Origin: Anaeromyxobacter diazotrophicus
Lineage (GTDB): Bacteria > Myxococcota > Myxococcia > Myxococcales > Anaeromyxobacteraceae
NCBI RefSeq assembly: GCF_013340205.1
Contig: NZ_BJTG01000003.1
Coordinates: 248,001 to 312,000, forward strand
Direction: 5' to 3'
Length of the DNA: 64,000 nt
The translations under genes and the position numbers were made by a program. The notes beneath the pieces were generated by a model, which had not been told where the DNA came from, did no database searches, and worked only from the letters and a program-made list of their open reading frames with translations. Below, one piece after another: positions 6,519 to 22,428 of this stretch. The first letter of the stretch is position 1, and every line of letters starts with the position of its first letter.

Positions 6519-8688
<2,170 letters not shown>

Positions 8689-8748
8689 GTCCCGGGCTCC
8701 ACTCCACCCGGGCGCCCCCGCCGCCCCGCGCGCAAGGTAGAAGACAGC

Positions 8749-9564
8749 ATGGTCCGTCGAACGAGACAGGTGCGCGGCGCGGGCCCGAGCGGGCGCGCCG
8801 GCGGGTTGCCGGCCGTCTACGAGGGCCCCGAGGAGCTCTCGGCCCTCCTCGCGCGCGCGGGCTCGCCCCACGACGCGGACGCGGTGGCCGAGCGCTTTCG
8901 CGAGGCGCAGCGGCTCGGGCACGAGCGCGCCGACGTCATCCCGGGGCTCTTCGAGGACGAGCCGCGCTTCGCCTCGCCCGAGGACGCGCGGCGCCTCTAC
9001 GGCAACCTGTTCGCGCTGTGGGACCGGCTCGCGCGCGGGCTCTCCATCTCGCGCGAGGAGCCCGAGGCGCCGCCGCCCCTCGCCCCGCCCGCCGCGGCGC
9101 TCCCGGAGCGCGGCGCGTCGCCGGGCACGGTCCTCCCGCCCGCGCTCGTGGACGCCGTATGGAAGCACCTCGACGCGCTCACCGACCGCGAGCGGCAGCG
9201 GCTGCGCGACCGCTTCGACGGCGCGCAGCCCAACGTCACCGCCTGGCTCGACGCCCTCACCCTGCCCGAGGCGGCGGCGCTGGCGGTGCACGACCTCGCC
9301 TTCGAGGCGTGGGCCATGTTCGACGTGGCGTTCGGCGACCGGGTGGACACGGTGCCGTTCCAGACCCTGCGCGCGACGCACCCCGAACCGGCGACCCTCG
9401 AGACCACCCAGCCGGCGCTGGCGGCCTACGTGTCCGAGGCGCTCGACCTCGTGGCGGAGGAGGACGCGAGCTTCGGCGCCGCGACGCGCGCCGAAGCCGA
9501 GCGCGTGCTGGCCACGGTGGCGGCGGCGCTGACCGAGGCCGTCGCGGCCGAAGAGGACGCGTGA
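8749..9564 (+). CDS. Conserved hypothetical protein
   Basis: A 271-residue cytoplasmic-looking protein with no signal peptide, membrane segment or motif I recognise. An N-terminal region (VYEGPEELSALLARAGSPHDADAVAERFREAQRLG) looks helical. After a Pro/Ala linker near residue 105 comes a second helical domain (LPPALVDAVWKHLDALTDRERQRL through TAWLDALTLPEAAALAVHDLAFE). The acidic C-terminus ends AEEDA. It stands 60 bp behind the Spy-like gene on the same strand and may share its transcript. Function unknown. Confidence 0.75.
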   Translation: MVRRTRQVRGAGPSGRAGGLPAVYEGPEELSALLARAGSPHDADAVAERFREAQRLGHERADVIPGLFEDEPRFASPEDARRLYGNLFALWDRLARGLSISREEPEAPPPLAPPAAALPERGASPGTVLPPALVDAVWKHLDALTDRERQRLRDRFDGAQPNVTAWLDALTLPEAAALAVHDLAFEAWAMFDVAFGDRVDTVPFQTLRATHPEPATLETTQPALAAYVSEALDLVAEEDASFGAATRAEAERVLATVAAALTEAVAAEEDA

Positions 9565-9633
9565 GGGGCCGCCCTACCGCGCCGCGGTAGGCGCATCCGC
9601 GCTTCCCGCGCCGGAGGTGGCGGGGCGACGGCC

Positions 9634-10509
9634 TCAGCCGTGGTGCCCGTGGCCGTCGTCGCCCTGGCCGCCGTCTCCGTGCGGGTCGTCACCCTGGCCG
9701 TGGTCACCGTGCCCGCCGTCGCCGTGCGGGTCGCCGCCCTGGCCGTGCTCTCCGTGTCCGCCATCCCCGTGCTGGTGGTCGCCCTGGTCGCCGCCGTGGC
9801 CGCCGTCCGCGTGGTCGCCGTCCCCGCCGCCGTCGTGGCCCGGCGAGGCGTTGCAGATCCACTGAGTGGAGTCGACCACCTCGTCGCCGTCGAGCTTGCC
9901 GTCGCCGTTCACGTCGAGGAAGCTCTGGAGCTCCACGCCGCCGTGCTCGCAGCCGTCCGGCGGGGTGCCGCCGGAGGGCGCGGCGGTGGCGAGGTAGACG
10001 CGGCTCGGCTGGAAGCAGGTGGTCGTCACCGACCGCGGCTCTTCGCCGTTCCAGACGCCGTTCCCGTCGAGGTCGGTGAAGGCGGTGATCTCGAGGCCGC
10101 CGGCGGGGCAGCTCTCCGAGCCGGGCGGCAGCGTGACCACGGAGATGATCGCGTTCGCTCCCGCGGGGCCCTGCGCGCCCGTCGCCCCGGTGGCGCCGGT
10201 CGGCCCAGTTTCCCCCGTCGCCCCGGTCGCTCCCGTCGCTCCCGTCGCCCCCGTGACCGTCTGCGCGCCCACCGTCCCGCCGGGGGCGCCGTTGCAGACG
10301 TAGGTGGTGGCGGTGACCTCGGAGGCGTCGAGCACGCCGTTCCCGTTCCGGTCCACGCCGGTCGACACCGCCGTGCCGCCGTACGTACAGTGAACCCCCG
10401 CCGCCTCGGGCGAGGTCGAGACGAGCGCGCTCGCCCCTCGGTCTCCCTTGTCCCCGCAAGCGATCACGCACGTCGCCAGGGCCAGGCTCCACCACCGCTG
10501 CGTCAGCAC
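9634..10509 (-). CDS. Lipoprotein with collagen-like, Ca-loop (DUF7151-like) and His/Gly/Asp repeats
   Basis: A 291-residue lipoprotein. GTG at 10509 is preceded by AAAGGTGG and leads straight into a lipoprotein signal with lipobox VIAC. Three Asp-rich loops of the EF-hand kind (DRNGNGVLDASE, DLDGNGVWNGEE, DVNGDGKLDGDE) sit beside paired Cys and resemble the DUF7151 repeat. Between loops 1 and 2 lies a collagen-like stretch of Gly-X-Thr triplets (about 30 residues). The last ~55 residues are an imperfect 15-residue repeat built from GDHGQGDDPHGDGG-like units, very rich in His, Asp and Gly, a plausible metal-binding tail. The repeat is also visible in the DNA at 9660-9790. Probable role: surface Ca- or transition-metal-binding protein (inference). 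Confidence 0.8.
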   Translation of the reverse strand: MLTQRWWSLALATCVIACGDKGDRGASALVSTSPEAAGVHCTYGGTAVSTGVDRNGNGVLDASEVTATTYVCNGAPGGTVGAQTVTGATGATGATGATGETGPTGATGATGAQGPAGANAIISVVTLPPGSESCPAGGLEITAFTDLDGNGVWNGEEPRSVTTTCFQPSRVYLATAAPSGGTPPDGCEHGGVELQSFLDVNGDGKLDGDEVVDSTQWICNASPGHDGGGDGDHADGGHGGDQGDHQHGDGGHGEHGQGGDPHGDGGHGDHGQGDDPHGDGGQGDDGHGHHG

Positions 10510-10910
10510 GAGCGCCACCTTTCGCGGCGCCGGTGAACGGGGCGCCGCCTCAACGGCCCGCGCGGGAGAGCGGAGGCCCGCGTCGCTCACCGGCGTGGGA
10601 CCGCTCGTCCGCGGCGGGACGAGTCGACTGTGTGGAGGGAGCCCACAGCAACCGCCGCGCCGCTCGGCTGGCCCACGACCGCGTGACGCGCGGGCGCGGG
10701 GAGGCGTCCTCCCCGAGAGACGCGCCCCGCCGGCGGGGCGCGCGGGCGTGGCCGCGCGCAACGCGCAGGCAGGACGCGGAGAAATGCGCCGCGCCGGCCC
10801 GCGCGCCGGCGCGAGCCGAGACCAGCGCACCGCCGCGCGGGACGGCGCGAGGGCGCCCGCCCGCTTGTCGGAATTACAGGCGCCGATCGGTAAGGCTTAC
10901 CGCCGCGAGG
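10510..10910. other. Gene-poor 400-bp region between two minus-strand genes
   Basis: No credible gene; open frames here lack start context and family resemblance. The DNA is extremely G/C-rich with many short self-complementary runs (GCGCGCC types). It must hold the promoter of the DUF7151-like lipoprotein. A precise palindrome lies at 10888-10902. Confidence 0.5.
10888..10902. promoter_or_regulatory. Perfect 15-bp palindrome CGGTAAGGCTTACCG
   Basis: Arms CGGTAAG and CTTACCG flank one central base. It lies 9 bp beyond the stop of the minus-strand hydrolase, inside a locally AT-richer patch. The single-base centre suits a dimeric DNA-binding protein better than an RNA hairpin, but a short terminator-like stem is possible. 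No partner identified. Confidence 0.4.
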
Positions 10911-11708
10911 TCAGGCCTCGGGCGGCAGCGCTGCGAAGAACCCCGACAGCGCCGCGCTGAAGGCGGTCGGGTTCTCGAGGTTGACGAGGTGCCCGGTGGC
11001 GGGGATGCGCAGGAGCCGCGCCCCCGGCACGTGCGTCGCCATCCGCTGCGCCTCGCCGAACGGGATCACCTGATCCTCCTCGCCCGCGATGACCAGGGTG
11101 GGGCAGGTGATGAGCGGCAGGGTCGGCACCGAGTCCTGCCGCAGCGCCAGCCCGCGCGCCGCCGCCGCCACCCCCTCGGGCGTGCCGCCCTGGATGAGCC
11201 CCTTCACCCTGGCCAGCAGCGCCGGGTCCGGGTCGGGCCGCAGCAGCTTCGGCCCGAAGTCGTCCGCGACCCAGCCGAGCCCCTTCGCGAGCGCGTTCCG
11301 AGCGTACTGCTCGCGCGCGTCCTTCTGCGCCTGGGTGTCGGGCGTCGCCTTGGTGGCGCACAGCGCGAGCGCGCGGAAGATGCCCGGCGCCTGGCGGTAG
11401 AGCTCGAGCGCGGCGTAGCCGCCCATCGACAGCCCGGCCACCGCCACCTTGCGGATCCCGAGCTGCCGGAGCAGCGCCAGCGCGTCCTGCGCGATGCGCG
11501 CCATGGTGGTCGGCCCCGCCGCGCCGCCGCTCCGGCCGAGGCCGCGGTCGTCGAACGCGAGCACGCGGAAGCGCGCCGCCAGCGCCGCCAGCTGCGGCTC
11601 CCACATCCTGGAGTGGAGCGGGAAGGCGTGGAGGAGCAGCACGACGTCGTTCCCGGAGCCCGCCTCGCGGTAGTGGAGGGTGGCGTCGCCGACGTGGAAG
11701 TTGGGCAT
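10911..11708 (-). CDS. Alpha/beta hydrolase
   Basis: A 265-residue alpha/beta-hydrolase fold protein. It has an oxyanion-loop segment LLLHAFPLHSRMW, the nucleophile elbow GLSMGG with Ser94, an acid in the segment IAGEEDQVIPF and a catalytic His in ATGHLVNLE. This layout is shared with 3-oxoadipate enol-lactonase (PcaD), haloperoxidase-type and BioH-type enzymes; PcaD-like is closest by eye, but no aromatic catabolism genes are nearby. No signal peptide, so cytoplasmic. It is divergent from tldD with 63 bp between starts. Substrate unknown. Confidence 0.85.
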   Translation of the reverse strand: MPNFHVGDATLHYREAGSGNDVVLLLHAFPLHSRMWEPQLAALAARFRVLAFDDRGLGRSGGAAGPTTMARIAQDALALLRQLGIRKVAVAGLSMGGYAALELYRQAPGIFRALALCATKATPDTQAQKDAREQYARNALAKGLGWVADDFGPKLLRPDPDPALLARVKGLIQGGTPEGVAAAARGLALRQDSVPTLPLITCPTLVIAGEEDQVIPFGEAQRMATHVPGARLLRIPATGHLVNLENPTAFSAALSGFFAALPPEA

Positions 11709-11771
11709 GGGCGGGAGCTTAGCAGCCGCGGAGCGGCGCGTCCGCGCCGGCCGTGTTACCTCCTCCGGGAC

Positions 11772-13199
11772 ATGAGCTCGATCCGTTACTTCGCCCGCTT
11801 CGGGGTGACCGAGGCGCTGGTCGCCGACGCGCTCTCGGCGGCGCTGTCCCGCGGCGGCGACTTCGCCGACGTCTTCTTCCAGCACCGCGTCTCGAACGAC
11901 CTGGCGCTCGAGGACGGGGCGGTGAACCGCGCCTACACCACCGTCGAGCTGGGCGTCGGCGTGCGGGTGGTGAAGGGCGACCAGACCGGCTACGGCTACA
12001 CCGAGGACCTCTCGCCCGCGGCGCTCCGCGCCTGCGCCGAAACCGCGGCCGCCATCGCCAGCGGCCCGGCCCGCCCGGCGCCGCAGCGCTTCCACGTCCC
12101 GTCGCGCCTGCCGGACCGCTACCGCCTGCAGACGCCCTGGGAGGAGGTGCGGCCCGAGGCGAAGCTGCCGCTCCTCGAGGGGGTGAACGCGCGCGTCTTC
12201 GCCGCCGACCCGCGGGTGAAGAAGGTGAGCGTCCACTTCCGCGACGAGGCGGGCGCGGTGCTGGTCGCCACCAGCGACGGGCGGCTCGTCGAGGACCTGC
12301 AGCCCATGACGCTGCTCTACGTCTCGTGCCTGGCGGAGCAGGGCGGGCGGCGCGAGCAGGGCGGCTACAACGTGGCCGGCCGGGCCGGCTTCGACTTCTA
12401 CGCGCCCGACCGGGTGGACCGGGTGGTGCGCGAGGCGGTGGCGCGCACCGCCATCCTGTTCGAGGCGGGGCCGGCGCCGGCCGGCGAGCTGCCGGTGGTG
12501 CTCGCCGCCGGCTCCTCGGGCATCCTGCTCCACGAGGCGATCGGCCACGGCATGGAGGCCGACTTCAACCGCAAGAACGTCTCCATCTACGCGGACAAGA
12601 TCGGCAAGGCCATCGCGAAGCCGTTCGTGAACATCGTCGACGACGCCGCCAACGAGGGCGCCCGCGGCGCCATCAACGTGGACGACGAGGGGAACGCGGC
12701 GGGGACCACCCGGCTCGTCGAGGACGGCGTGCTCGCCACCTACCTCCACGACGCGATCAGCGCCAAGCACTACGGCGTCGCCCCCACCGGCAACGGCCGC
12801 CGCCAGGGCTACGCCTATCCGCCCTTGCCCCGCATGCGCTCGACCTACATGCTGCCCGGCCCGCACAAGCGGGAGGAGATCATCCAGAGCGTGAAGAAGG
12901 GCATCTACTGCGAGAACTTCACCAATGGGCAAGTGAACATCGGGGCCGGCGACTTCACCTTCTACGTGAAGAACGGCTGGCTCATCGAGGACGGCAAGCT
13001 GACGCGGCCGATCAAGGACGTGAACATCATCGGCAACGGCCCCAAGGTGCTGGAGCAGGTGGACATGGTCTCGGACGACCTCGCCATCGACGAGGGCGGC
13101 TGGACCTGCGGCAAGGACGGGCAGAGCGTGCCGGTCTCGCAGGGGCTGCCGACGGTGCGGGTGGCCTCGCTCACCGTGGGGGGGCGCGGGAATGGCTAG
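11772..13199 (+). CDS. tldD: TldD metalloprotease subunit
   Basis: A 475-residue TldD. The zinc site is the HExxxH segment LLHEAIGHGMEAD (H254, E255, H259) in the C-terminal domain. The N-terminal domain carries the usual GVGVRVVKGDQTGYGYT region. With TldE it forms a heterodimeric protease that trims modified peptides and other unfolded substrates (microcin B17 maturation and CcdA degradation in E. coli). Its end overlaps the tldE start by 8 bp, so the two are translationally coupled. Length matches the family. The start ATG lies 10 bp after a TTACCT box, so the leader is short at most. Confidence 0.95.
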   Translation: MSSIRYFARFGVTEALVADALSAALSRGGDFADVFFQHRVSNDLALEDGAVNRAYTTVELGVGVRVVKGDQTGYGYTEDLSPAALRACAETAAAIASGPARPAPQRFHVPSRLPDRYRLQTPWEEVRPEAKLPLLEGVNARVFAADPRVKKVSVHFRDEAGAVLVATSDGRLVEDLQPMTLLYVSCLAEQGGRREQGGYNVAGRAGFDFYAPDRVDRVVREAVARTAILFEAGPAPAGELPVVLAAGSSGILLHEAIGHGMEADFNRKNVSIYADKIGKAIAKPFVNIVDDAANEGARGAINVDDEGNAAGTTRLVEDGVLATYLHDAISAKHYGVAPTGNGRRQGYAYPPLPRMRSTYMLPGPHKREEIIQSVKKGIYCENFTNGQVNIGAGDFTFYVKNGWLIEDGKLTRPIKDVNIIGNGPKVLEQVDMVSDDLAIDEGGWTCGKDGQSVPVSQGLPTVRVASLTVGGRGNG

Positions 13200-14517
13200 C
13201 GACCTCCTGAAGGTGGCCGAGGAGACGGTGGCGCTGGCGCTCCGGAAGGGCGCGCGCGAGGCGGCCGGCGGCGCCTACCGCGTGCGCTCGGTCGAGGTGC
13301 AGTGGCGCGACGGGCAGCTCGAGAAGGTGACCGAGGCCACCACCCGCGGGCTCGGCCTCGAGCTGTACGTGGACGGCCGCTACAGCGCGGTCTCCACCGC
13401 GGACCTCCGGCCGGAGGCGGTGGAGCAGTTCGTCGCGGACGCGATCGCGCTCACCCGCACGCTCACCCCCGACCCCTACCGCGCGCTGCCGGATCCCCGG
13501 CTGTACGAGGGCCGCTCGACGCTGGCGCTCGACCTCGAGGACCCGCGCTACGGCGAGCTCGACGCCGCGCGCCGGGTGGACCTGGCGCGGGCGCTGGAGG
13601 AGTCGGCGCGGGCGGTGAAGGGCGCCGAGGCCATCCTCTCCGTCACCACCGGCTTCGGCGACACGCTGGGCGAGAGCGCGCGCGTCCACTCCAACGGCTT
13701 CAGCGGCGCGCGGCGCGTGACCGACTTCGGCCTCTCGGCGCAGGTCTCGGTGAAGGACCCCGACGGCCGCCGCCCGGAGGACTGGGACGCCGCCGGCGGT
13801 CGCCACTTCCGCGCGCTGCCGGCGCCGGAGCGGGTGGGCCGCGCCGCCGCGGAGCGCGCGCTCGCGCGCATCGGCTCCCGCAAGGGCGAGTCGGGTCGCT
13901 TCACCGTGGCGGTCGAGAACCGCTCCGCGGCGCGGCTGCTCGGCTTCCTGCTCGGGCCCATGACCGCGGCGGCGCTGCAGCAGAAGCGCAGCTTCCTCGA
14001 CGGAAAGCTCGGCGCGCAGATCGGGAGCGCCCGGCTCGAGCTCGCCGACGATCCGCTCGTGCCGCGCGGGCTCGGCTCGCGCCTGTGGGACTCGGAGGGG
14101 ATCGCCGCCCGCCGCTTCCCGCTCTTCGAGGCGGGCGCGCTCCGGAGCTACTTCGTCGACAACTACTACGGCCGGAAGCTCGGGATGGCGCCCACCAGCC
14201 GCGGCATGTCGAACCTGGCGTGGAAGCTGGGCGAGCACGGTCAGGACCGGCTCCTCGCCGAGCTGGGCGAGGGGCTCCTCGTCACCGGCTTCCTCGGCGG
14301 GAACTCGAACTCCACCACCGGTGACTTCTCGCTCGGCGCGCAGGGCTTCCGCGTCCGCGGCGGCCAGCTGGCCGAGCCGGTGGGCGAGATGAACCTCTCC
14401 GGCAACCACCTCGAGCTCTGGCCGCACCTCGCGGGAGTCGGAAACGACCCCTACCCCTGGTCCGCCGCGCGGACCCCCACCCTCGTCTTCGAGGGCGTGC
14501 AGGTCGCCGGCACCTGA
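13192..14517 (+). CDS. pmbA: TldE/PmbA, partner of TldD
   Basis: A 441-residue partner subunit that shares the TldD fold but lacks the HExxxH zinc motif; the equivalent region reads ENRSAARLLGFLLGPMTAAAL, as expected for TldE. The conserved C-terminal segment GNSNSTTGDFSLGAQGFRV is present. It scaffolds the TldD active site and forms the substrate tunnel. Translational overlap with tldD ensures equal synthesis. A hairpin (14546-14565) follows 28 bp after the stop. Confidence 0.93.
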   Translation: MASDLLKVAEETVALALRKGAREAAGGAYRVRSVEVQWRDGQLEKVTEATTRGLGLELYVDGRYSAVSTADLRPEAVEQFVADAIALTRTLTPDPYRALPDPRLYEGRSTLALDLEDPRYGELDAARRVDLARALEESARAVKGAEAILSVTTGFGDTLGESARVHSNGFSGARRVTDFGLSAQVSVKDPDGRRPEDWDAAGGRHFRALPAPERVGRAAAERALARIGSRKGESGRFTVAVENRSAARLLGFLLGPMTAAALQQKRSFLDGKLGAQIGSARLELADDPLVPRGLGSRLWDSEGIAARRFPLFEAGALRSYFVDNYYGRKLGMAPTSRGMSNLAWKLGEHGQDRLLAELGEGLLVTGFLGGNSNSTTGDFSLGAQGFRVRGGQLAEPVGEMNLSGNHLELWPHLAGVGNDPYPWSAARTPTLVFEGVQVAGT

Positions 14518-14545
14518 CCGCCGCCCGCGCTCCGGCTGTCCGCCT

Positions 14546-14565
14546 CCGTCGGCGCTCGCCGACGG
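14546..14565 (+). terminator. Hairpin downstream of tldD-pmbA
   Basis: Perfect 8-bp arms CCGTCGGC and GCCGACGG around a GCTC tetraloop, 28 bp after the pmbA stop. There is no T-tract, so this is a candidate terminator or 3'-end stabiliser rather than a textbook intrinsic terminator. A second weaker stem (CCCCCT/AGGGGG) lies at 14598-14616. Confidence 0.5.
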
Positions 14566-14959
14566 CGTCGCGACGCGCTGCGTAAACGGAAGTTCTACCC
14601 CCTCGAAGGGAGGGGGCCGTCACGGTCCGTCAGGGATCAAAAGGGGCGTAAATGACTGGTTAACTCCACGACCAGTCTTTGACCACGGTCAACCGTAAGC
14701 GCTAGCCCCGCGTCCCGAAAGGTAGTTTCTCCCGTCCGGGAGGCAGATTCCCCTGGAATTTGCCCGCCTGTACGTTGAGAGCGGGACATGCGCCTACCGT
14801 CCCCTACCCAAAATATTCCCCAACACACGCCCCCTTGCCCTGCCGCCGAGGTGAGCCTCGAGGTAGCGCAAGTTCGTACGTGTGGGTGCCCAAATGGGTC
14901 TATCGAGACCCTGGGCGAGGGAATGGCGCGGCTCGAACGCAGTCCACGGGGACGCAGAC
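14566..14959. other. Long regulatory/leader region before the multicopper oxidase
   Basis: About 390 bp without a supported gene, and clearly less G/C-rich than its surroundings. It holds two inverted repeats (14654-14692), an AT patch near 14806-14828, and two hairpins close to the gene: CGAGG-TGAG-CCTCG near 14850 and GGGTCT-ATCG-AGACCC at 14896-14911. It is probably promoter plus a structured 5' leader. I could not match it to a known riboswitch class. Confidence 0.5.
14654..14692. promoter_or_regulatory. Two adjacent inverted repeats upstream of the multicopper oxidase
   Basis: GACTGGT (14654-14660) is inverted as ACCAGTC (14671-14677). Directly after it lies the near-continuous palindrome TTGACC-AC-GGTCAA (14679-14692), whose left arm could double as a -35 box. 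Two regulator-type sites side by side ~270 bp before the start suggest regulated expression. The regulator is not identified. Confidence 0.45.
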
Positions 14960-17900
14960 ATGTTCAACCGGCTCGGAATCCACTGGAAGGGCCTCGCGGC
15001 GCTGCTGGCCGCGGGGTGCGTCGCTCTCCCGCTGACCGCGAGGGCGCAGGCGTCCTCGGCGCAGCCCTCGGTGGTCCCCTCGCCCAAGGGCGACGGCTCG
15101 ACCATGACGCTCATGCGCCGGACGACGCAGGCCGACCGCGCCGGCGCCGCGCTGCGCGCGCTGCAGCGCAAGAAGGCGAACGCGGCCGTCGCGCCCGCGG
15201 CGGCGCCGAAGCTCGCCCCGAAGGCCGCGCCCAAGGCCGGCGCCTCCCGCCTGCGGGCGGCGGGCACGGCGAGCCGGGCGGCGACCCTGGCTCCCGCGCT
15301 CCCGCCCTACGACCTCTACGCCTCGCCCAACTACGCGACCAGCAAGTACCCGACCGCCACGTGCTCCAACTCGCCGGGCGTGACCTGCCAGAAGGACGCG
15401 GACTGCCCGGGCTACCAGCCGCCTTTCCTCATCGGGCCGAACCTCTTCCCGTCCGCCGAGACCTGCACCGGGCCCGTCGTGCCCGGCACCGGCATCCAGA
15501 AGTTCGTCGACACGCTGCCGGGCTTCTGCAGCGTGACCGGGCCGAACGACCTCGGCAACTGCCTGCCGATCGCGATGCCTGACACCAGCACCTTCCCCGG
15601 CGCCGACTACTACGAGATCGGCCTCCAGGACTACCGGTACCAGTTCCACCGCGACCTGCCGAACAAGACCAAGGTCCGCGGCTACTACCAGAAGAACACC
15701 AGCGATCCCTACGCCAGCAAGAACTTCTACCTGGGCCCGTTCATCGTGGCCCGGACGGACCGCCCGGTGCGCGTGAAGTTCACGAACGAGCTCGGCGTCG
15801 GCGCGGCGGGCGACTTCTTCATCCCGGTGGACAAGACGCTCTCCGGCACCGACCTCGGGCCGGACGGGACGCCCTACACGCAGAACCGCGCCACCGTCCA
15901 CCTGCACGGCGGCAACTCCCCGTGGATCAGCGACGGCACGCAGCACCAGTGGACGACGCCGGTGGGCGAGAACACCACCACCCACAAGCGCGGCGTCAAC
16001 GTGGAGTTCGTGCCGGACATGTGGTTCGACGTGAACGGCAATCCGCTCGCCGCCTGCTCCGGCCAGGTCTCCTGCGCCGTCCCTGGCGCCACCAACGACC
16101 CGGGCGACGGCCGGCTCACCTTCTACTGGACGAACCAGCAGAGCGGCCGGCTCATGTTCTTCCACGACCACGCGTACGGCATCACCCGGCTCGGCGTCTA
16201 CGCCGGCGAGGCGGCGGGTTACCTGCTCGTGAAGCCGGACGACGAGGACCGGCTGGCGGCGGCCACCGTGCCGGGCACCCTGGGCACCAAGTTCTTCGAC
16301 CCGGCGTCCGCGGTGACGACGGCGACCTCGCCCGACCTCGACCACGTCATCCCGCTCGTCCTCCAGGACAAGACCTTCGTCCCGCCCGCCGCGCAGCTCG
16401 CGCAGCAGGACCCGACCTGGGACCCGGCGCTGTGGAGCGGCGAGGACGGCCTCTGGTACCCGCACGTCTACACGCCGAACCAGTGGCCGGGGAACCCCGA
16501 CCTCTCCAGCACGAACCCCATGGGACGCTGGGACTACGGCCCGTGGTTCTGGCCCATGCAGACCTCCCTCACCGGCGTCACCTGGGATGGCCAGGTCGTG
16601 AACCGGCCGCTCACCATCCCGTGCCGCAGCGCGCTGGCGGTGGACCCGCTCACGAACCCGAACGGCGACACCGAGTGCCCGAGCACGCCCTCGCCCTCGA
16701 TGGTGCCCGAGTCGTTCCTCGACACGCCGGTGGTGAACGGCACCGCCTACCCGACGCTCACCGTCGACCCGGCCGCCTACCGCTTCCAGATCCTGAACGC
16801 CGCCAACGAGCGCAACTTCAACCTCAGCCTGTTCGTCGCCGACGCGAGCGGCACCGAGGTGAAGATGGTGGACGCGGTGCCGCACTCGTCCAGCAGCGTG
16901 CCGCCGCTCTGCAGCGGAAGCGCGCCGCTCAGCGACGTGACCGGCTCGCCCAACGGCCCGGACCTCGGCCCCGCCACCTGCTGGCCGCGCGACTGGCCGG
17001 TCGACGCCCGCCAGGGCGGCGTGCCGGACCCGGCCACCGTCGGCCCGAAGTGGATCCAGATCGGCAGCGAGGCGGGGCTGCTCCCGGCGCCGGCCGTCAT
17101 CCCGCCGCTGCCCGTCAACTACGAGCTCAACAAGCGCAACATCGTGGTGCTGAACGTCTCGACCAAGGCGCTCTTCATGGGCCCGGCCGAGCGCGCCGAC
17201 GTGGTGGTGGACTTCTCCGCCTACGCCGGGAAGACGCTCATCCTCTACAACGACTCGCCCGCGCCGGTGCCGGCCGGTGACCCGCGCCAGGACCTGTACA
17301 CGGGCGCGCCCGACCAGACCACCGTCGGCGGCGCGCCGAGCCCGCTCCCCGGCTACGGCCCGAACAACCGCACCGTCATGCAGATCAAGGTGCGCGCCGC
17401 CGCCTCCGCCTCGCAGCCGCCGGTCGATCTGGCGGCCATCACGACGGCGCTCAACCAGGCCTTCGCCGGCTCGCAGCCGCCGCCCATCGTGCCGGAGGCG
17501 GTCTACAACCAGGTCTACAACCCGGCGACGCCGTTCGCGAACACCTACCTGCCCATCCAGGCGCTGAGCCTCACCTTCACGCCCATCGGGCAGTCGCAGC
17601 CGGTCACCATCCCGTTCGCGAACAAGGCGCTGCACGAGCTCTTCACGACCGACCAGGGCCGGATGAACTCGCTCCTCGGCGTGGAGATCCCGAACACGAA
17701 CTGGCTCAACCAGACCACCATCCCGTTCGCGAACTTCGACCCGACGACCGAGTTCCTCACCGACGGCGTGCCGCAGATCTGGAAGATCACGCACAACGGC
17801 GTCGACACCCACACCATCCACTTCCACCTCTTCAACGCGCAGGTCCTGAACCGCGTCGGCTGGGACGGCCAGATCCGCGCCCCGGACGCGAACGAGCTCG

Positions 17901-20755
17901 GGTGGAAGGAGGTCGTCCGCATGAACCCGCTCGAGGACGTCCTCATCGCCCTCAAGCCGGTGAAGCAGAACCTGCCCTGGCCGCTGCCCGACAAGATCCG
18001 GCCGCTCGACGTCGATCGCCCGCTCGGCACCGCGTCGCAGTTCACGGGCGTGGACGTGAACAACAACCCCATCCAGATCACGAACCAGCTCGTGAACTTC
18101 GGCCAGGAGTACATCTGGCACTGCCACCTCCTCGGGCACGAGGAGGAGGACATGATGCGCTCCGAGGTGCTGGTGACCGCGCCCGAGGTGCCGTCGAGCC
18201 TGGTCGTGTCGCAGCCGCTGCCGACCGACCAGCCGGTGCTCGTCTGGCGGGACGAGTCGAAGAGCGCGATGACGTTCACCGTCCAGCGCTCGACCGACCC
18301 GACCTTCGCGAACGACCTGGTGACCTTCTCGGCGGCGGCGCCGACCGTGCAGCCCGGTCCCGCCAGCGCGACCGACGCCAACGCCCTGGTGGGCGGGCAG
18401 GTCTACTACTACCGCGTGCGGGGTGAGAAGGTGCTGACGAGCCCGGCGCTGCCGGGGCAGACCTTCCCGGCCACCTCCAACTGGTCCAACGTCGCCCAGC
18501 TCGGGACGGTGGCGCTGGTCACGGTCAGCCCCGACGCCGTCGCGTTCGGCGACCAGCGGGTCGGCACCGCCAGCGCGGCGCGCAGCGTGACGCTCACCGC
18601 CGGCGGCATCACCTCGCTCGCCATCTCGGTGGTGGGCGCCCAGGCCGCCGACTTCGCCATCGCGTCGACGAGCACGTGCGGCCCGAGCCTCGGCGCCGGC
18701 GCCAGCTGCACGGTCGACCTGGTCTTCAAGCCGGCCGCGCTCGGCGCGCGCGCCGCCACCCTCGAGATCCTGACCTCGGCGAGCGTCGTCCCGCTGTCGG
18801 TGGCGCTCACCGGCAACGGCGTCGCCCCGGTGGCGAGCGTCTCGCCGCTGACGCTCTCCTTCGGCAACCAGCTCGTGAACGTGACCAGCGCCGCCCAGGC
18901 CGTCACGCTCACCAACACCGGCACCCTGCCGCTCACCGTGACCGGCCTGGCGCTCGCCGGCACGAACCCGGGCGACTTCGCGCAGACCAGCACCTGCCCG
19001 GTGGCGCCCGCCACCCTCGCCGCCGGCGCGGCCTGCACCGTCAGCGTGACCTTCAGGCCGTCGGCCCTCGCGGCGCGGGGGGCCCGCCTCACGGTGAGCA
19101 CGGACGACCCCATCACGCCGGTGGTCACGGTGACCCTCGACGGCACGGGCATCGCCCCGCTCCTCACGGTGAACCCGAACGCGCTCGCCTTCGTGAACCA
19201 GCTCGTGACGAACCCGCCGGCGGCCGGCGCGGCGCAGACGGTGACGCTCACGAACGGCGGGACGGCCCCGGTGGCGTCCCTGGCCGCCGGCCTCTCCGGC
19301 GGCAACGCGGCCGAGTTCCAGGTGGTGAGCAGCAGCTGCGGCACCACCCTCGCCGCCGGCGGAAGCTGCACCGTCGCCGTGGCGTTCGCCCCGGCCACGT
19401 CCGGCGCGAAGGCGGCCTCCCTGGTCATCACCGGCACGGACGGGGTGAACCCCATCCCCGCCCAGGCGGTGGCCCTCACCGGCACGGACGTCGCGCCGGT
19501 GGCCGGGCTGGCGCCGAACCCGCTCACGTTCGCCGCCCAGACCCTGAACACGCCCAGCGCGCCCCAGACGCTCACGCTGTCCAACACCGGCACGGCCCCG
19601 CTCACGGTGAGCGGCATCACCGCCAGCGGTGACTTCAGCCAGACGAGCAGCTGCGCCACCGTGGCGGCCGGCGCGAGCTGCGCCATCACCGTCACCTTCA
19701 CGCCCACCGCGACCGGCACCCGGTCCGGCACCGTGACCGTGACCAGCTCCGACCCGGTGAACCCGACCCTCACCGCCGCGGTGAACGGCATGGGCACCGC
19801 CATCAGCCTCTCCCCGTCGGTGCTCGCCTTCGGCACCCAGCTCGTCGGCACGACCAGCGCCTCGCGCTCGGTGACGCTCATCAACACCGGCACGACCGCG
19901 CTGGCCATCACCAGCGTCGGGGTCAGCGGGGCGAACGCCGCCGACTACGCGGTGACGAACAACTGCGCGGCGAGCCTGTCGGCCGGCCGCTCCTGCACCC
20001 TCGGCGTGCGCTTCACGCCGGCGGCGGTCGGGCCCTCCACGGCCACGCTCTCGGTGGTCACCTCCGACCCGGCCGGCCCGGCGACCGTGGCGCTGAGCGG
20101 GACGGGCGGCGTCCCGGTCGCCGCGGTGGCGCCCACCTCGCTCGCCTTCACGAGCGCGATGAACGTCACCTCGGCCGCGCAGACGGTCACGGTCACGAAC
20201 ACCGGCACCTCGCCGCTCACCCTGAACGGCACGGCGCTCGGCGGGACCGACCCGAGCCAGTTCGCCCGGACCAGCACCTGCGGCCCGAGCCTGGCGGCCG
20301 GGGCGAGCTGCACCATCGACGTGACGTTCACGCCCACCACCTACGGCGGCGTGCTCACCAAGTCGGCGACGCTCACCGTCAACGTGGCCGCCCCGGCGAC
20401 CTCGCAGACGGTCAGCCTGACCGGCACCATCCTGGTCCCGACCTACACCCTCACCCCGACGGCCCTCACCTTCGCCAAGCAGACGGTGGGGACGACCAGC
20501 GCGGCGCAGACGGTGACCCTGGCCAACACCGGCACGGCGCCGCTCGGCATCCGCGGCATCACGCTCGGCGGCAACAACCCCGGCAGCTTCGCCCAGACGA
20601 ACAGCTGCGGGACGAGCGTGGCCGCCGGCGCGAGCTGCACCATCTCGGTCACGTTCACGCCGACGCGCGTCGGCTCGCGGACCGCGACGCTCAACGTGCG
20701 CGTCTCGGCGCCGGCGGTTTCGCAGTCGGTGACGCTGACGGGGTCCGGGCAGTAG
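14960..20755 (+). CDS. Giant multicopper oxidase fused to seven ASH/HYDIN-type domains
   Basis: A 1931-residue secreted protein. After a signal peptide (LAALLAAGCVALPLTARAQA) and an Ala-rich linker comes a CotA-like multicopper oxidase. Copper ligands are visible in order: HLHGG at 314, HDH at 402-404, HTIHFH at 951-956 and HCHLLGHEEEDMM around T1 Cys1055 with axial Met. All four copper-binding motifs are intact. Residues ~1070-1186 look FN3-like. From ~1187 to the end are seven repeats of about 106 residues with a paired-Cys pattern (SSC...GASC) and the FTPT...G motif of choice-of-anchor D/ASH (HYDIN) domains. MCOs couple one-electron oxidation (metal ions, phenols, bilirubin) to O2 reduction; Cu(I) or Mn(II) oxidation are plausible here. 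The following lipoprotein is probably co-transcribed. Confidence 0.9.
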   Translation: MFNRLGIHWKGLAALLAAGCVALPLTARAQASSAQPSVVPSPKGDGSTMTLMRRTTQADRAGAALRALQRKKANAAVAPAAAPKLAPKAAPKAGASRLRAAGTASRAATLAPALPPYDLYASPNYATSKYPTATCSNSPGVTCQKDADCPGYQPPFLIGPNLFPSAETCTGPVVPGTGIQKFVDTLPGFCSVTGPNDLGNCLPIAMPDTSTFPGADYYEIGLQDYRYQFHRDLPNKTKVRGYYQKNTSDPYASKNFYLGPFIVARTDRPVRVKFTNELGVGAAGDFFIPVDKTLSGTDLGPDGTPYTQNRATVHLHGGNSPWISDGTQHQWTTPVGENTTTHKRGVNVEFVPDMWFDVNGNPLAACSGQVSCAVPGATNDPGDGRLTFYWTNQQSGRLMFFHDHAYGITRLGVYAGEAAGYLLVKPDDEDRLAAATVPGTLGTKFFDPASAVTTATSPDLDHVIPLVLQDKTFVPPAAQLAQQDPTWDPALWSGEDGLWYPHVYTPNQWPGNPDLSSTNPMGRWDYGPWFWPMQTSLTGVTWDGQVVNRPLTIPCRSALAVDPLTNPNGDTECPSTPSPSMVPESFLDTPVVNGTAYPTLTVDPAAYRFQILNAANERNFNLSLFVADASGTEVKMVDAVPHSSSSVPPLCSGSAPLSDVTGSPNGPDLGPATCWPRDWPVDARQGGVPDPATVGPKWIQIGSEAGLLPAPAVIPPLPVNYELNKRNIVVLNVSTKALFMGPAERADVVVDFSAYAGKTLILYNDSPAPVPAGDPRQDLYTGAPDQTTVGGAPSPLPGYGPNNRTVMQIKVRAAASASQPPVDLAAITTALNQAFAGSQPPPIVPEAVYNQVYNPATPFANTYLPIQALSLTFTPIGQSQPVTIPFANKALHELFTTDQGRMNSLLGVEIPNTNWLNQTTIPFANFDPTTEFLTDGVPQIWKITHNGVDTHTIHFHLFNAQVLNRVGWDGQIRAPDANELGWKEVVRMNPLEDVLIALKPVKQNLPWPLPDKIRPLDVDRPLGTASQFTGVDVNNNPIQITNQLVNFGQEYIWHCHLLGHEEEDMMRSEVLVTAPEVPSSLVVSQPLPTDQPVLVWRDESKSAMTFTVQRSTDPTFANDLVTFSAAAPTVQPGPASATDANALVGGQVYYYRVRGEKVLTSPALPGQTFPATSNWSNVAQLGTVALVTVSPDAVAFGDQRVGTASAARSVTLTAGGITSLAISVVGAQAADFAIASTSTCGPSLGAGASCTVDLVFKPAALGARAATLEILTSASVVPLSVALTGNGVAPVASVSPLTLSFGNQLVNVTSAAQAVTLTNTGTLPLTVTGLALAGTNPGDFAQTSTCPVAPATLAAGAACTVSVTFRPSALAARGARLTVSTDDPITPVVTVTLDGTGIAPLLTVNPNALAFVNQLVTNPPAAGAAQTVTLTNGGTAPVASLAAGLSGGNAAEFQVVSSSCGTTLAAGGSCTVAVAFAPATSGAKAASLVITGTDGVNPIPAQAVALTGTDVAPVAGLAPNPLTFAAQTLNTPSAPQTLTLSNTGTAPLTVSGITASGDFSQTSSCATVAAGASCAITVTFTPTATGTRSGTVTVTSSDPVNPTLTAAVNGMGTAISLSPSVLAFGTQLVGTTSASRSVTLINTGTTALAITSVGVSGANAADYAVTNNCAASLSAGRSCTLGVRFTPAAVGPSTATLSVVTSDPAGPATVALSGTGGVPVAAVAPTSLAFTSAMNVTSAAQTVTVTNTGTSPLTLNGTALGGTDPSQFARTSTCGPSLAAGASCTIDVTFTPTTYGGVLTKSATLTVNVAAPATSQTVSLTGTILVPTYTLTPTALTFAKQTVGTTSAAQTVTLANTGTAPLGIRGITLGGNNPGSFAQTNSCGTSVAAGASCTISVTFTPTRVGSRTATLNVRVSAPAVSQSVTLTGSGQ

Positions 20756-20775
20756 GCGGCAGCCCCGGCGAGGAC

Positions 20776-20808
20776 GCTGCTGCCCGCAGCAGGTGCGCGG
20801 GCAGCAGC
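20776..20808 (+). terminator. Strong hairpin between the oxidase and lipoprotein genes
   Basis: Perfect 12-bp arms GCTGCTGCCCGC and GCGGGCAGCAGC with a 9-nt loop, 20 bp after the oxidase stop and 32 bp before the next start. No T-tract follows, so it may act as a partial terminator or mRNA stabiliser that lowers expression of the downstream lipoprotein. Confidence 0.6.
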
Positions 20809-20840
20809 GCGGCCGGGCCACAGGTCTTCGAGGAGAGCAC

Positions 20841-21857
20841 ATGACCACCCGAATCGACGAGATCGCCGTGAAGACGAAGGGTCGCCGCGCCGCGCTGGGC
20901 CTCGCGCTCATCCTGGCGGCGGGCTGCCAGAGCTCCAGCACCCCGAGCGCCAAGCTGCAGTCGCTGGCCCTCGCGCCCGGCCCCGCCTACCTGGCGGTGG
21001 GCGGCTCCCAGCAGCTCACCGCCACCGGCCGCTACTCGGACGGGCGCGTCGCCGCCGTCGCGAGCGGCCTCCAGTGGCGGTCGTCCGACGCCGCCATCGC
21101 CACCGTGAGCGACGCCGGCGTCGTGACCGCGGTCGGGAAGGGCAGCGCCACCATCACCGCCACCCACGCGAGCGGGGTCAGCGCGACCGCCGAGCTCGTG
21201 TCGCGGGTGATGACCTCGCTCGCCCTGGGCACCGACCTGCCCCGCACCGGCAGCGTGGACACCACCCGCGCCCTCTACCGGGTGACCGGCCTCACGCCGG
21301 GCGCGTTCTACCTGGCGGCGCTGACGAAGCTCGACGACGACGTGGACCTGGAGGTGTACTCGGACGCGAGCCTCTCCGAGGGCGCCCTGGCGTGCGCGTC
21401 CCAGACCGCGGGCACCGTCCCCGAGTCCTGCACCGCGCCGGCGAGCGCCGCCGGGGAGCTCTACCTGGCGGTGGACGGCTCCTGGACCGAGGACGGCGCG
21501 AGCTTCCAGGTCGAGACGGGCCCCGCCGCCCCGCTGACGCACGCCGACCTGGCGTTCCCGGCTCAGCTCCCCGCCGCCGGCACCGTGGATCGGGGCGAGA
21601 AGGACTACCGCGTGACCGGGCTCACCCCCGGCGCCTCGTACGTGGTCCGCATCTCGGGGCTCAGCGACGACGCCGACCTCGACGTCTACTCCGACGCGTA
21701 CCACTACACGACCGCGTGCAGCTCCTACGCCTCCGGCAAGGTGGACGACTTCTGCACCGCGGTCGCCACCGCGGCGGGCGAGCTGTTCGTCGAGGTGGAC
21801 GGCGAGAGCACCTCGAGCGGCGCGAGCTTCACGCTCAGCGTGACGGCGGCGCGGTAG
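20841..21857 (+). CDS. Lipoprotein with Big2 (Ig-like) and two PPC-like domains
   Basis: A 338-residue lipoprotein. The signal ends in ALILAAGCQSS (lipobox AAGC), and a good ribosome site (AGGAG) precedes the ATG. Residues ~45-125 form a Big2 bacterial Ig-like domain (VGGSQQLTATGRYSDG ... ATVSDAGVVTAVGKGSATIT). Two similar ~95-residue domains follow, each with YRVTGLTPGA.Y and DADLDVYSDA-like segments that resemble pre-peptidase C-terminal (PPC) domains; both carry paired Cys. No enzymatic domain is seen. It is probably a surface-anchored binding or assembly partner of the upstream secreted oxidase. Confidence 0.8.
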   Translation: MTTRIDEIAVKTKGRRAALGLALILAAGCQSSSTPSAKLQSLALAPGPAYLAVGGSQQLTATGRYSDGRVAAVASGLQWRSSDAAIATVSDAGVVTAVGKGSATITATHASGVSATAELVSRVMTSLALGTDLPRTGSVDTTRALYRVTGLTPGAFYLAALTKLDDDVDLEVYSDASLSEGALACASQTAGTVPESCTAPASAAGELYLAVDGSWTEDGASFQVETGPAAPLTHADLAFPAQLPAAGTVDRGEKDYRVTGLTPGASYVVRISGLSDDADLDVYSDAYHYTTACSSYASGKVDDFCTAVATAAGELFVEVDGESTSSGASFTLSVTAAR

Positions 21858-21881
21858 CCACCGCCTCGCCTCGCGGTGCGG

Positions 21882-21910
21882 CCCCCTCTCCCTCGGTGGG
21901 GGAGAGGGGG
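21882..21910. repeat. Intergenic G/C palindrome / bidirectional terminator-like hairpin
   Basis: CCCCCTCTCCC and its inverted partner GGGGGAGAGGGGG around CTCGGT, in the 94-bp gap between two convergent genes. It is the same sequence family as the palindromes inside pomX, pomY and dapE. The position fits a bidirectional terminator; the family resemblance fits a dispersed repeat. Confidence 0.65.
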
Positions 21911-21951
21911 GGGCGTCTTCGAGAGGGCTGCCGCCCTCGCCCCGCCGCCCT

Positions 21952-22428
21952 TCAGCTGACGGTGTCGTCCTCGCCGTGCCGCGACGGCGGCGGGGCGACG
22001 CTCGAGAAGACGAGCGCCGTCACGATCGCCTCCGGCGCCGCGCCCGGCTTCCAGAGCTCCCGCAGGCCGAGGCGGCAGCCGCCGACCGCGTCGAGCAGCC
22101 ACCCGCTCACCTCCGGCGCCGCGTTCACCGACTCGCAGGTGGCGGCGAGCACCTGCTCCACCAGCACCCACTCCGCGTCGAGCTCCGCGGCGTCCACCGT
22201 CGTGGGCCAGCGCACCACGCCGCCGAGCCCGCGCCACACCTCCGCCGCCGGCGCGCCGCGCGCCAGGAGCTCGCCGGCGCGCGCGAAGAACTCCGCCACC
22301 ACCCCGTCGAGGAGGCCCGGGAACACCTCCGGCCGCGCCGTGGCGCGGGCGAGCCGCCAGATGCGGACCAGCTCCTCGCCCTGCTGCGCGAGGAAGAGCG
22401 CCACCTGCGCCGGACCGAGCTGGGTCAC
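21952..22428 (-). CDS. Conserved hypothetical protein (small helical)
   Basis: A 158-residue, mostly helical protein with no signal peptide or known motif. GTG at 22428 overlaps the stop of the upstream hydrolase as GTGA, which fixes the start. It contains EVFPGLLDGVVAEFFARAGELLARG and an acidic C-terminus (HGEDDTVS). It is translationally coupled to the hydrolase and so probably belongs to the same purS-purQ transcript. Function unknown. Confidence 0.75.
   Translation of the reverse strand: MTQLGPAQVALFLAQQGEELVRIWRLARATARPEVFPGLLDGVVAEFFARAGELLARGAPAAEVWRGLGGVVRWPTTVDAAELDAEWVLVEQVLAATCESVNAAPEVSGWLLDAVGGCRLGLRELWKPGAAPEAIVTALVFSSVAPPPSRHGEDDTVS

Follow-up and report, generated by a model that had tools for sequence, protein, structure and literature searches.

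The closest relative of known structure of the protein described here is CotA, a laccase of the Bacillus spore coat (PDB 1gsk), found by phmmer against solved structures (3.7e-31); for CotA of B. pumilus, Mn-oxidase activity is described in the available part of PMC3618234. OmpB of Geobacter sulfurreducens (GSU1394) and MofA of Leptothrix are, according to the excerpt of PMC5566968, large exported multicopper oxidases of the laccase family, extracellular and containing FN3 domains. A different arrangement, in which a haem peroxidase is joined to RTX repeats, is described for MopA-type Mn oxidases (PMC6247904, in excerpt). Fe(III) reducers, Anaeromyxobacter and Geobacter among them, are reported to change the expression of their multicopper oxidases with the oxygenation rate in soil (available part of PMC6199725).

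Long surface oxidases are candidate players in the cycling of Mn and Fe by bacteria, and how Gram-negative bacteria hold such enzymes outside the cell is poorly known. Choice-of-anchor D domains, also called ASH (ASPM-SPD-2-Hydin) domains, take the former name from a C-terminal anchor following the domain, which is not required by the NCBIfam model NF012200. A literature search joining choice-of-anchor D with multicopper oxidase found no paper.

The gene analysed here belongs to the soil bacterium Anaeromyxobacter diazotrophicus, whose genome (G000) comprises 4.83 Mb in 17 contigs and is 100% complete; the window, i.e. the whole stretch of DNA analysed, is 64,000 nucleotides long. Labels of the form G0xx indicate genomes of the Anaeromyxobacter family, and those of the form L0xx, L1xx or L2xx the loci compared. 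The open reading frame extends from 14882 to 20755 on the plus strand and opens at a GTG, while the ATG at 14960 gives a protein of 1931 aa with a signal peptide, and the gene is taken as 14960-20755 (+). Codon-position analysis gave a GC3 of 0.98-1.00 over the full length, which shows the gene to be real throughout. In a scan for promoters and terminators, nothing promoter-like appeared, and terminator-like sites were as frequent as expected by chance. The protein consists, in order, of a signal peptide, a spacer, an oxidase core, an FN3-like linker and seven ASH domains; profile matches and the CotA alignment confirm the initial annotation, which had proposed a 1931-residue multicopper oxidase with seven ASH/HYDIN-type domains. 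The features are the following, each with the evidence used to define it:

14960..15046, +, signal peptide, residues 1-29 (sequence; Sec type, cleavage site judged by eye)
15047..15598, +, Ala/Pro/Lys-rich spacer, then a Cys-containing stretch, residues 30-213 (sequence)
15599..18187, +, CotA-like multicopper oxidase core, residues 214-1076 (CotA alignment, ligand columns, model)
18188..18517, +, FN3-like linker, residues 1077-1186 (profile of homologous linkers)
18518..18832, +, ASH domain 1, Cys 1240/1250 (NF012200, 54.6 bits)
18833..19165, +, ASH domain 2, Cys 1346/1359 (NF012200, 93.9 bits)
19166..19501, +, ASH domain 3, Cys 1460/1470 (NF012200, 65.0 bits)
19502..19801, +, ASH domain 4, Cys 1565/1574 (NF012200, 84.3 bits)
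19802..20122, +, ASH domain 5, Cys 1669/1679 (NF012200, 80.5 bits)
20123..20446, +, ASH domain 6, Cys 1774/1784 (NF012200, 68.0 bits; 74% identical to L031 domain 6)
20447..20755, +, ASH domain 7, Cys 1883/1893, and stop codon (NF012200, 93.0 bits; 70% identical to L031 domain 7)
20841..21857, +, small predicted lipoprotein with one Big_2 domain and two similar domains, one matching PPC (Pfam Big_2, PPC)

A hydrophobic N-terminal segment of similar kind is found in most homologues, and residues 30-213 are 46-53% identical to the corresponding parts of the family homologues L031, L027, L028 and L030.

All twelve copper ligands of the head (H314, H316, H402, H404, H951, H954, H956, H1054, C1055, H1056, H1060 and M1065) align with those of CotA. 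In the CotA numbering that we assume, the acidic residues D325 and E1061 align with D116 and E498. All 13 family-genome cores compared have the same residue in each of the twelve ligand columns; a 40-row alignment of this core with 39 named homologues, taken from 68 eligible ones, shows no change at any of the ten His or at the Cys, and conservation of at least 90% at the axial Met. By alignment, then, the ligand set for type 1, 2 and 3 copper is complete. A model of residues 200-1190 (mean pLDDT 79, with several loops below 50) superimposes on CotA with Z 28.6 and an rmsd of 2.3 over 459 residues, and Foldseek agrees, so that the predicted fold of the head is that of a three-cupredoxin oxidase. 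The intact CotA-like copper oxidase of the initial annotation, which had made its reading depend on the placing of the copper ligands, is borne out on both counts; the size of the core is corrected to about 855 residues, against 513 in CotA, because of insertions. The protein thus shares with CotA the twelve ligands, both acidic residues and the fold, and differs from it in the longer core, the signal peptide, the FN3-like linker and the seven ASH domains, and in not being a spore protein.

The linker is below detection with Pfam fn3 alone, but a profile of 87 homologous linkers matches residues 1077-1186 with 57 bits (E 1e-19), in agreement with the FN3-like linker of the initial annotation. 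Downstream of it, NCBIfam choice_anch_D (NF012200) matches seven stretches with an overall E of 3.6e-138; scored singly, all seven repeats exceed the curated cut-off of 45 bits (54.6-93.9 bits), and the Pfam ASH, Cep192_D4 and HYDIN models also match the tail. Recovery of the repeats by HMMs as ASH/choice-of-anchor D, on which their identification had been staked, was therefore obtained for each of them, and the seven domains of about 106 residues described earlier, each with a Cys pair, are found at 100-112 residues with one pair apiece. Of each pair, the first Cys is in a loop and the second on the predicted strand that follows it, a layout compatible with a disulfide in each domain. The tail model is all beta (pLDDT 82) and has a low pTM (0.35), as would be expected for a string of beads; in Foldseek it matches chains of the ciliary central pair (central apparatus) best. 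These domains resemble known ASH domains in exceeding the cut-off and in their ciliary structural matches, and are unlike the others in being bacterial, probably part of an extracellular stalk, provided with a Cys pair each, fused to an enzyme and devoid of a C-terminal anchor.

We consider it fairly probable that the protein is an exported, catalytically complete CotA-type oxidase, held at the outer surface by the chain of seven Ig-like ASH domains, in each of which a disulfide is probable; display by such a stalk is likely. A periplasmic laccase for copper tolerance or scavenging, of the CueO/CotA kind, with Cu(I) or phenols as substrates of the head and an ASH chain that does no more than space or stabilise it, appears unlikely. 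It would agree with a head closest to CotA and other laccases, with weak CueO matches in NCBIfam, all below the cut-off, and with the lack of a visible outer-membrane sorting signal, since the protein ends at ASH7 and NCBIfam gave no sorting-domain match after it. The genes with a Pfam match around the oxidase encode TldD, PmbA, the Big_2 lipoprotein, an alpha/beta hydrolase, a Na/Ca exchanger, a CorC-type protein, DUF2382 and an MFS protein; unlike in mof/omp clusters, none of the neighbours scanned encodes a cytochrome, SCO1/SenC or a prolyl isomerase and, contrary to what a copper-tolerance role would suggest, no copper-resistance gene was seen among them either. Further points against a periplasmic laccase come from the homologues.

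Core relatives were found in 15 of the 24 family genomes, and a scan of the collection judged 510 of 593 candidate stretches to be relatives. The best 80 of these 510 loci were examined and include records of Acidobacteria, Geobacter, Geomonas, Geothrix, Chloroflexi, Bacillus, Micromonospora, methanogens and others; the oxidase belongs to a widespread group of long CotA-like oxidases. Tail length in the homologues ranges from almost none to over 1200 residues. Ninety homologue tails were computed, and 87 of them were aligned with the tail studied here, the three others (L039, L040 and the second oxidase of L122) being near-copies or second copies. Within this set of 88 tails, Pfam fn3 is found in 39, Pfam ASH in 13, choice_anch_D in 14 and CWB2 in two, one from a Coriobacteriaceae and one from an Actinobacteria record, with three CWB2 stretches each. 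These wall-binding modules of cell-wall bacteria, standing where ASH stands here, are the best indirect sign that the tail serves surface placement, and they speak against a periplasmic enzyme. On a tree of 94 cores, from which duplicate loci (L044, L045 and L123; L027 equals L044 and L030 equals L045) and incomplete or weak cores had been dropped, the ASH label, carried by 14 rows, needs 7 changes, either gains or losses, at least 5 of which are forced by starred branches, compared to 13.4 for shuffled labels. Across the relatives the head is thus kept while the tail changes, heads and chains of this kind having been combined anew more than once.

Two tail-less relatives, in L033 (1081-4317, +; L033_0) and L042 (6033-8084, +), have RR-type (Tat-like) N-termini, which the long forms, judged by eye, mostly lack. 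The long type therefore looks separately routed, which suggests distinct export routes for tailed and tail-less forms and is again unfavourable to a periplasmic laccase. The idea, put forward in the initial annotation, of a long arm presenting the enzyme outside the cell is thus supported indirectly, by the signal peptide, by the surface modules (CWB2) in the tails of homologues and by the co-occurrence of the tail with a lipoprotein, described below.

With OmpB and MofA, compared by description only, the protein has in common that it is a large exported laccase-family oxidase with an FN3 domain from metal-cycling bacteria. It is set apart, again by description, by the seven-domain ASH tail, by the absence from its 1931 residues, in a pattern scan, of EXXE, the Fe(III)-binding motif reported for OmpB, and by the absence of a mofB/mofC/SCO1 cluster among the neighbours scanned. 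Lacking both EXXE and mof-type neighbours, it was not filed with OmpB/MofA; it may work like them. An OmpB-like accessory role in electron transfer during respiration of Fe(III)/Mn(IV) oxides, with the copper centres or the stalk contacting minerals, is quite improbable in our judgement: homologues do occur in Geobacter, Geomonas and Geothrix records among the best 80 of the 510 loci, and the family includes Fe(III)-reducing Anaeromyxobacter, but the motif of OmpB is missing, and an intact site for O2 reduction favours an oxidase. Nor is mineral respiration the general role of the group, which has members in Micromonospora, Bacillus and methanogen records too.

Despite the Geobacter and Geomonas records, G. 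sulfurreducens is not found among the best 80 of the 510 loci. In the genus of one Geobacter genome, three of four genomes have a P0001-like oxidase together with a weaker one about 5 kb away, a pair that is not identifiable as either OmpB or OmpC. In L091 (Geobacter sp. H2geo, 7608-16556) a pair of genes for FKBP-type prolyl isomerases is enclosed by two multicopper oxidase genes, an order that recalls mofA-mofB, and the tails of both oxidases are made of similar WYLDLNGNGAWDGTP-type repeats.

The distribution of ASH arrays was also followed outside the oxidases. In G000, choice-of-anchor D is present genome-wide in only two proteins, the oxidase, with seven stretches, and a 3255-codon frame on contig 9 (L141, 1857-11621, +), with two. 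This frame has a probable lipoprotein start inside it, is 67% identical to L140 (G023) and contains cupredoxin-like, cadherin-like, beta-helix and two ASH domains; together with L138, L140 and L189 it forms a set of giant cupredoxin-like proteins with ASH. As copper oxidases these giants were rejected, since L138, L140 and L141 have no HCH motif, and HxH is confined to the part of L141 beyond the aligned region. ASH arrays are also found on exported CxxCH proteins, encoded in L139 (G003), L142 (G013), and L143 and L191 (G009), that of L142 ending in a MYXO-CTERM sorting domain over the cut-off. Other ASH carriers are L187 and L188, predicted lipoproteins with N-terminal ASH, L192, and L190, which we take from its motif to be a PIG-L-like deacetylase.

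Four domains closely similar to ASH2, 5, 6 and 7 of the oxidase lie at L136 (G010, same genus; 7824-12351, -), across N runs, downstream of a deacetylase-like lipoprotein frame, either fused to it or in separate genes. L137 (G017:C26, 3392-9799, +), from another genus of the family, encodes a MopA-like animal haem peroxidase (An_peroxidase, 2.9e-61) with RTX repeats and four C-terminal ASH domains, one of which is 61-62% identical to ASH6; its enzyme fold is unrelated, and only the type of tail is shared with the oxidase, which makes it a second type of metal oxidase with such a tail.

Since ASH is also found on proteins with no redox head, the notion that these tails mark redox enzymes was rejected; the stalk is rather a general surface module in the family, indicative of the surface and not of metal. 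The last two ASH domains have strong matches (E <1e-70) in 6 of the 24 genomes; a role as universal C-terminal signal was discarded, as other oxidase tails end in other domains. The presence of ASH chains on several other exported family proteins, together with the spore-coat location of CotA, would also fit a protein of cell-cell adhesion or of the surface matrix that works through its ASH chain, its oxidase serving to cross-link polymers, a role that CotA may have in the spore coat. Conservation resides in the head and not in the tail, and nothing found is specific to an adhesin, so that we regard this as highly implausible.

Head and tail were also compared separately. The nearest core is that of L027 (G023), with 66-78% identity in five core segments, while across ASH1-6 its tail has only 20-42% identity to the one studied here. 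Closest in the tail is L031 (G011): ASH domains 2-7 have their best foreign match in the same-numbered L031 domain (57, 49, 62, 63, 74 and 70% identity), ASH6 and ASH7 being the best conserved part, and ASH domain 1 fits L031 domain 5 best. Conversely, all seven L031 domains match this oxidase best, domains 1 and 3 at another number. The L031 core, instead, is sister to the acidobacterial L068 core (support 97/94), and forcing it into the core clade of the oxidase studied here was rejected by an AU test (p = 0.0001), performed on a tree of 26 of the 94 cores with a group named after the first tree was seen. By these comparisons the seven-domain tail is collinear with that of an oxidase whose core belongs to another lineage, a new finding. 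Tail and core disagree, so that one or the other has been exchanged.

The predicted lipoprotein gene starts 86 bp downstream of the oxidase gene, and its signal ends AAGC-QSSS. Its only other full-length match in the 24 family genomes, again a new observation, is in G011 (51%, E 1e-86), directly downstream of the L031 oxidase and on the same strand; the next match (5e-16) covers the Big_2 part only. The lipobox region GC(Q/K)SSS is conserved between the two lipoproteins. The lipoprotein is thus found together with the tail in precisely those two genomes that have the seven-domain form, and the two pairs occupy different sites in the chromosome: pmbA of G011 lies about 0.7 Mb from the G011 oxidase. 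Being based on two genomes, the pairing is a lead, and the lipoprotein is proposed as a membrane partner of the tail. It is conceivable, if doubtful, that the seven-ASH tail and the lipoprotein form a two-part outer-membrane docking cassette, in which the lipoprotein would hold the end of the stalk and oxidase heads would be swapped by recombination.

Flanking the oxidase-lipoprotein gene pair are pmbA and a hydrolase gene of opposite orientation, with 7.9 kb between them (interval 14517-22428). A pmbA match was found in 24 genomes; G008, G018 and G023 were left out of the site comparison, which covered 20 stretches downstream of pmbA from 19 other genomes, plus L036 of G017, for a total of 21. 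Both pmbA and the hydrolase gene are present on 16 of these stretches. The hydrolase gene is absent from five, three of which end near pmbA, while L193 and L205 do not. Fifteen of the 16 two-gene stretches have no oxidase; the gap is about 1 kb or less on 14 of these 15 and 3.5 kb in G011. The two genes studied here are thus recognized as an insert of about 8 kb at the pmbA-hydrolase site, likewise a new observation. L036 carries an oxidase at the same site, with a core of another lineage (43-50% identical) and a different FN3-type tail. The two oxidases found there are unlike, which suggests either two separate arrivals at the site or the replacement of one oxidase.

In the mechanism proposed for the surface oxidase, the protein would cross the outer membrane, probably by type II secretion, by analogy with what is reported for Geobacter OmpB, and the end of the tail would be anchored at that membrane, possibly through the lipoprotein whose gene starts 86 bp downstream. 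At its type 1 copper the head would accept electrons from a donor outside the cell, and it would reduce O2 to water. Likely donors would be Mn(II) or Fe(II) at the cell-mineral interface, with phenolic or humic reductants next in line. In this scheme the choice of substrate is the least secure part: Mn(II), the example given in the initial annotation, is one possible option, and the oxidase contains no sequence feature separating Mn(II) from Fe(II), Cu(I) or phenols.

Three results deserve following: the disagreement between core and tail, the association of the tail with the lipoprotein, and the insertion site. If the tail and the lipoprotein are a mount, two genes would be enough to test surface display, the natural head swaps would provide matched variants for asking what the head oxidises, and a cilium-type domain would gain a concrete bacterial job. 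Should the docking cassette be real, Anaeromyxobacteraceae would possess a surface mount on which extracellular enzymes can be exchanged, serving copper oxidases and possibly, via related ASH tails, MopA-like peroxidases and cytochromes.
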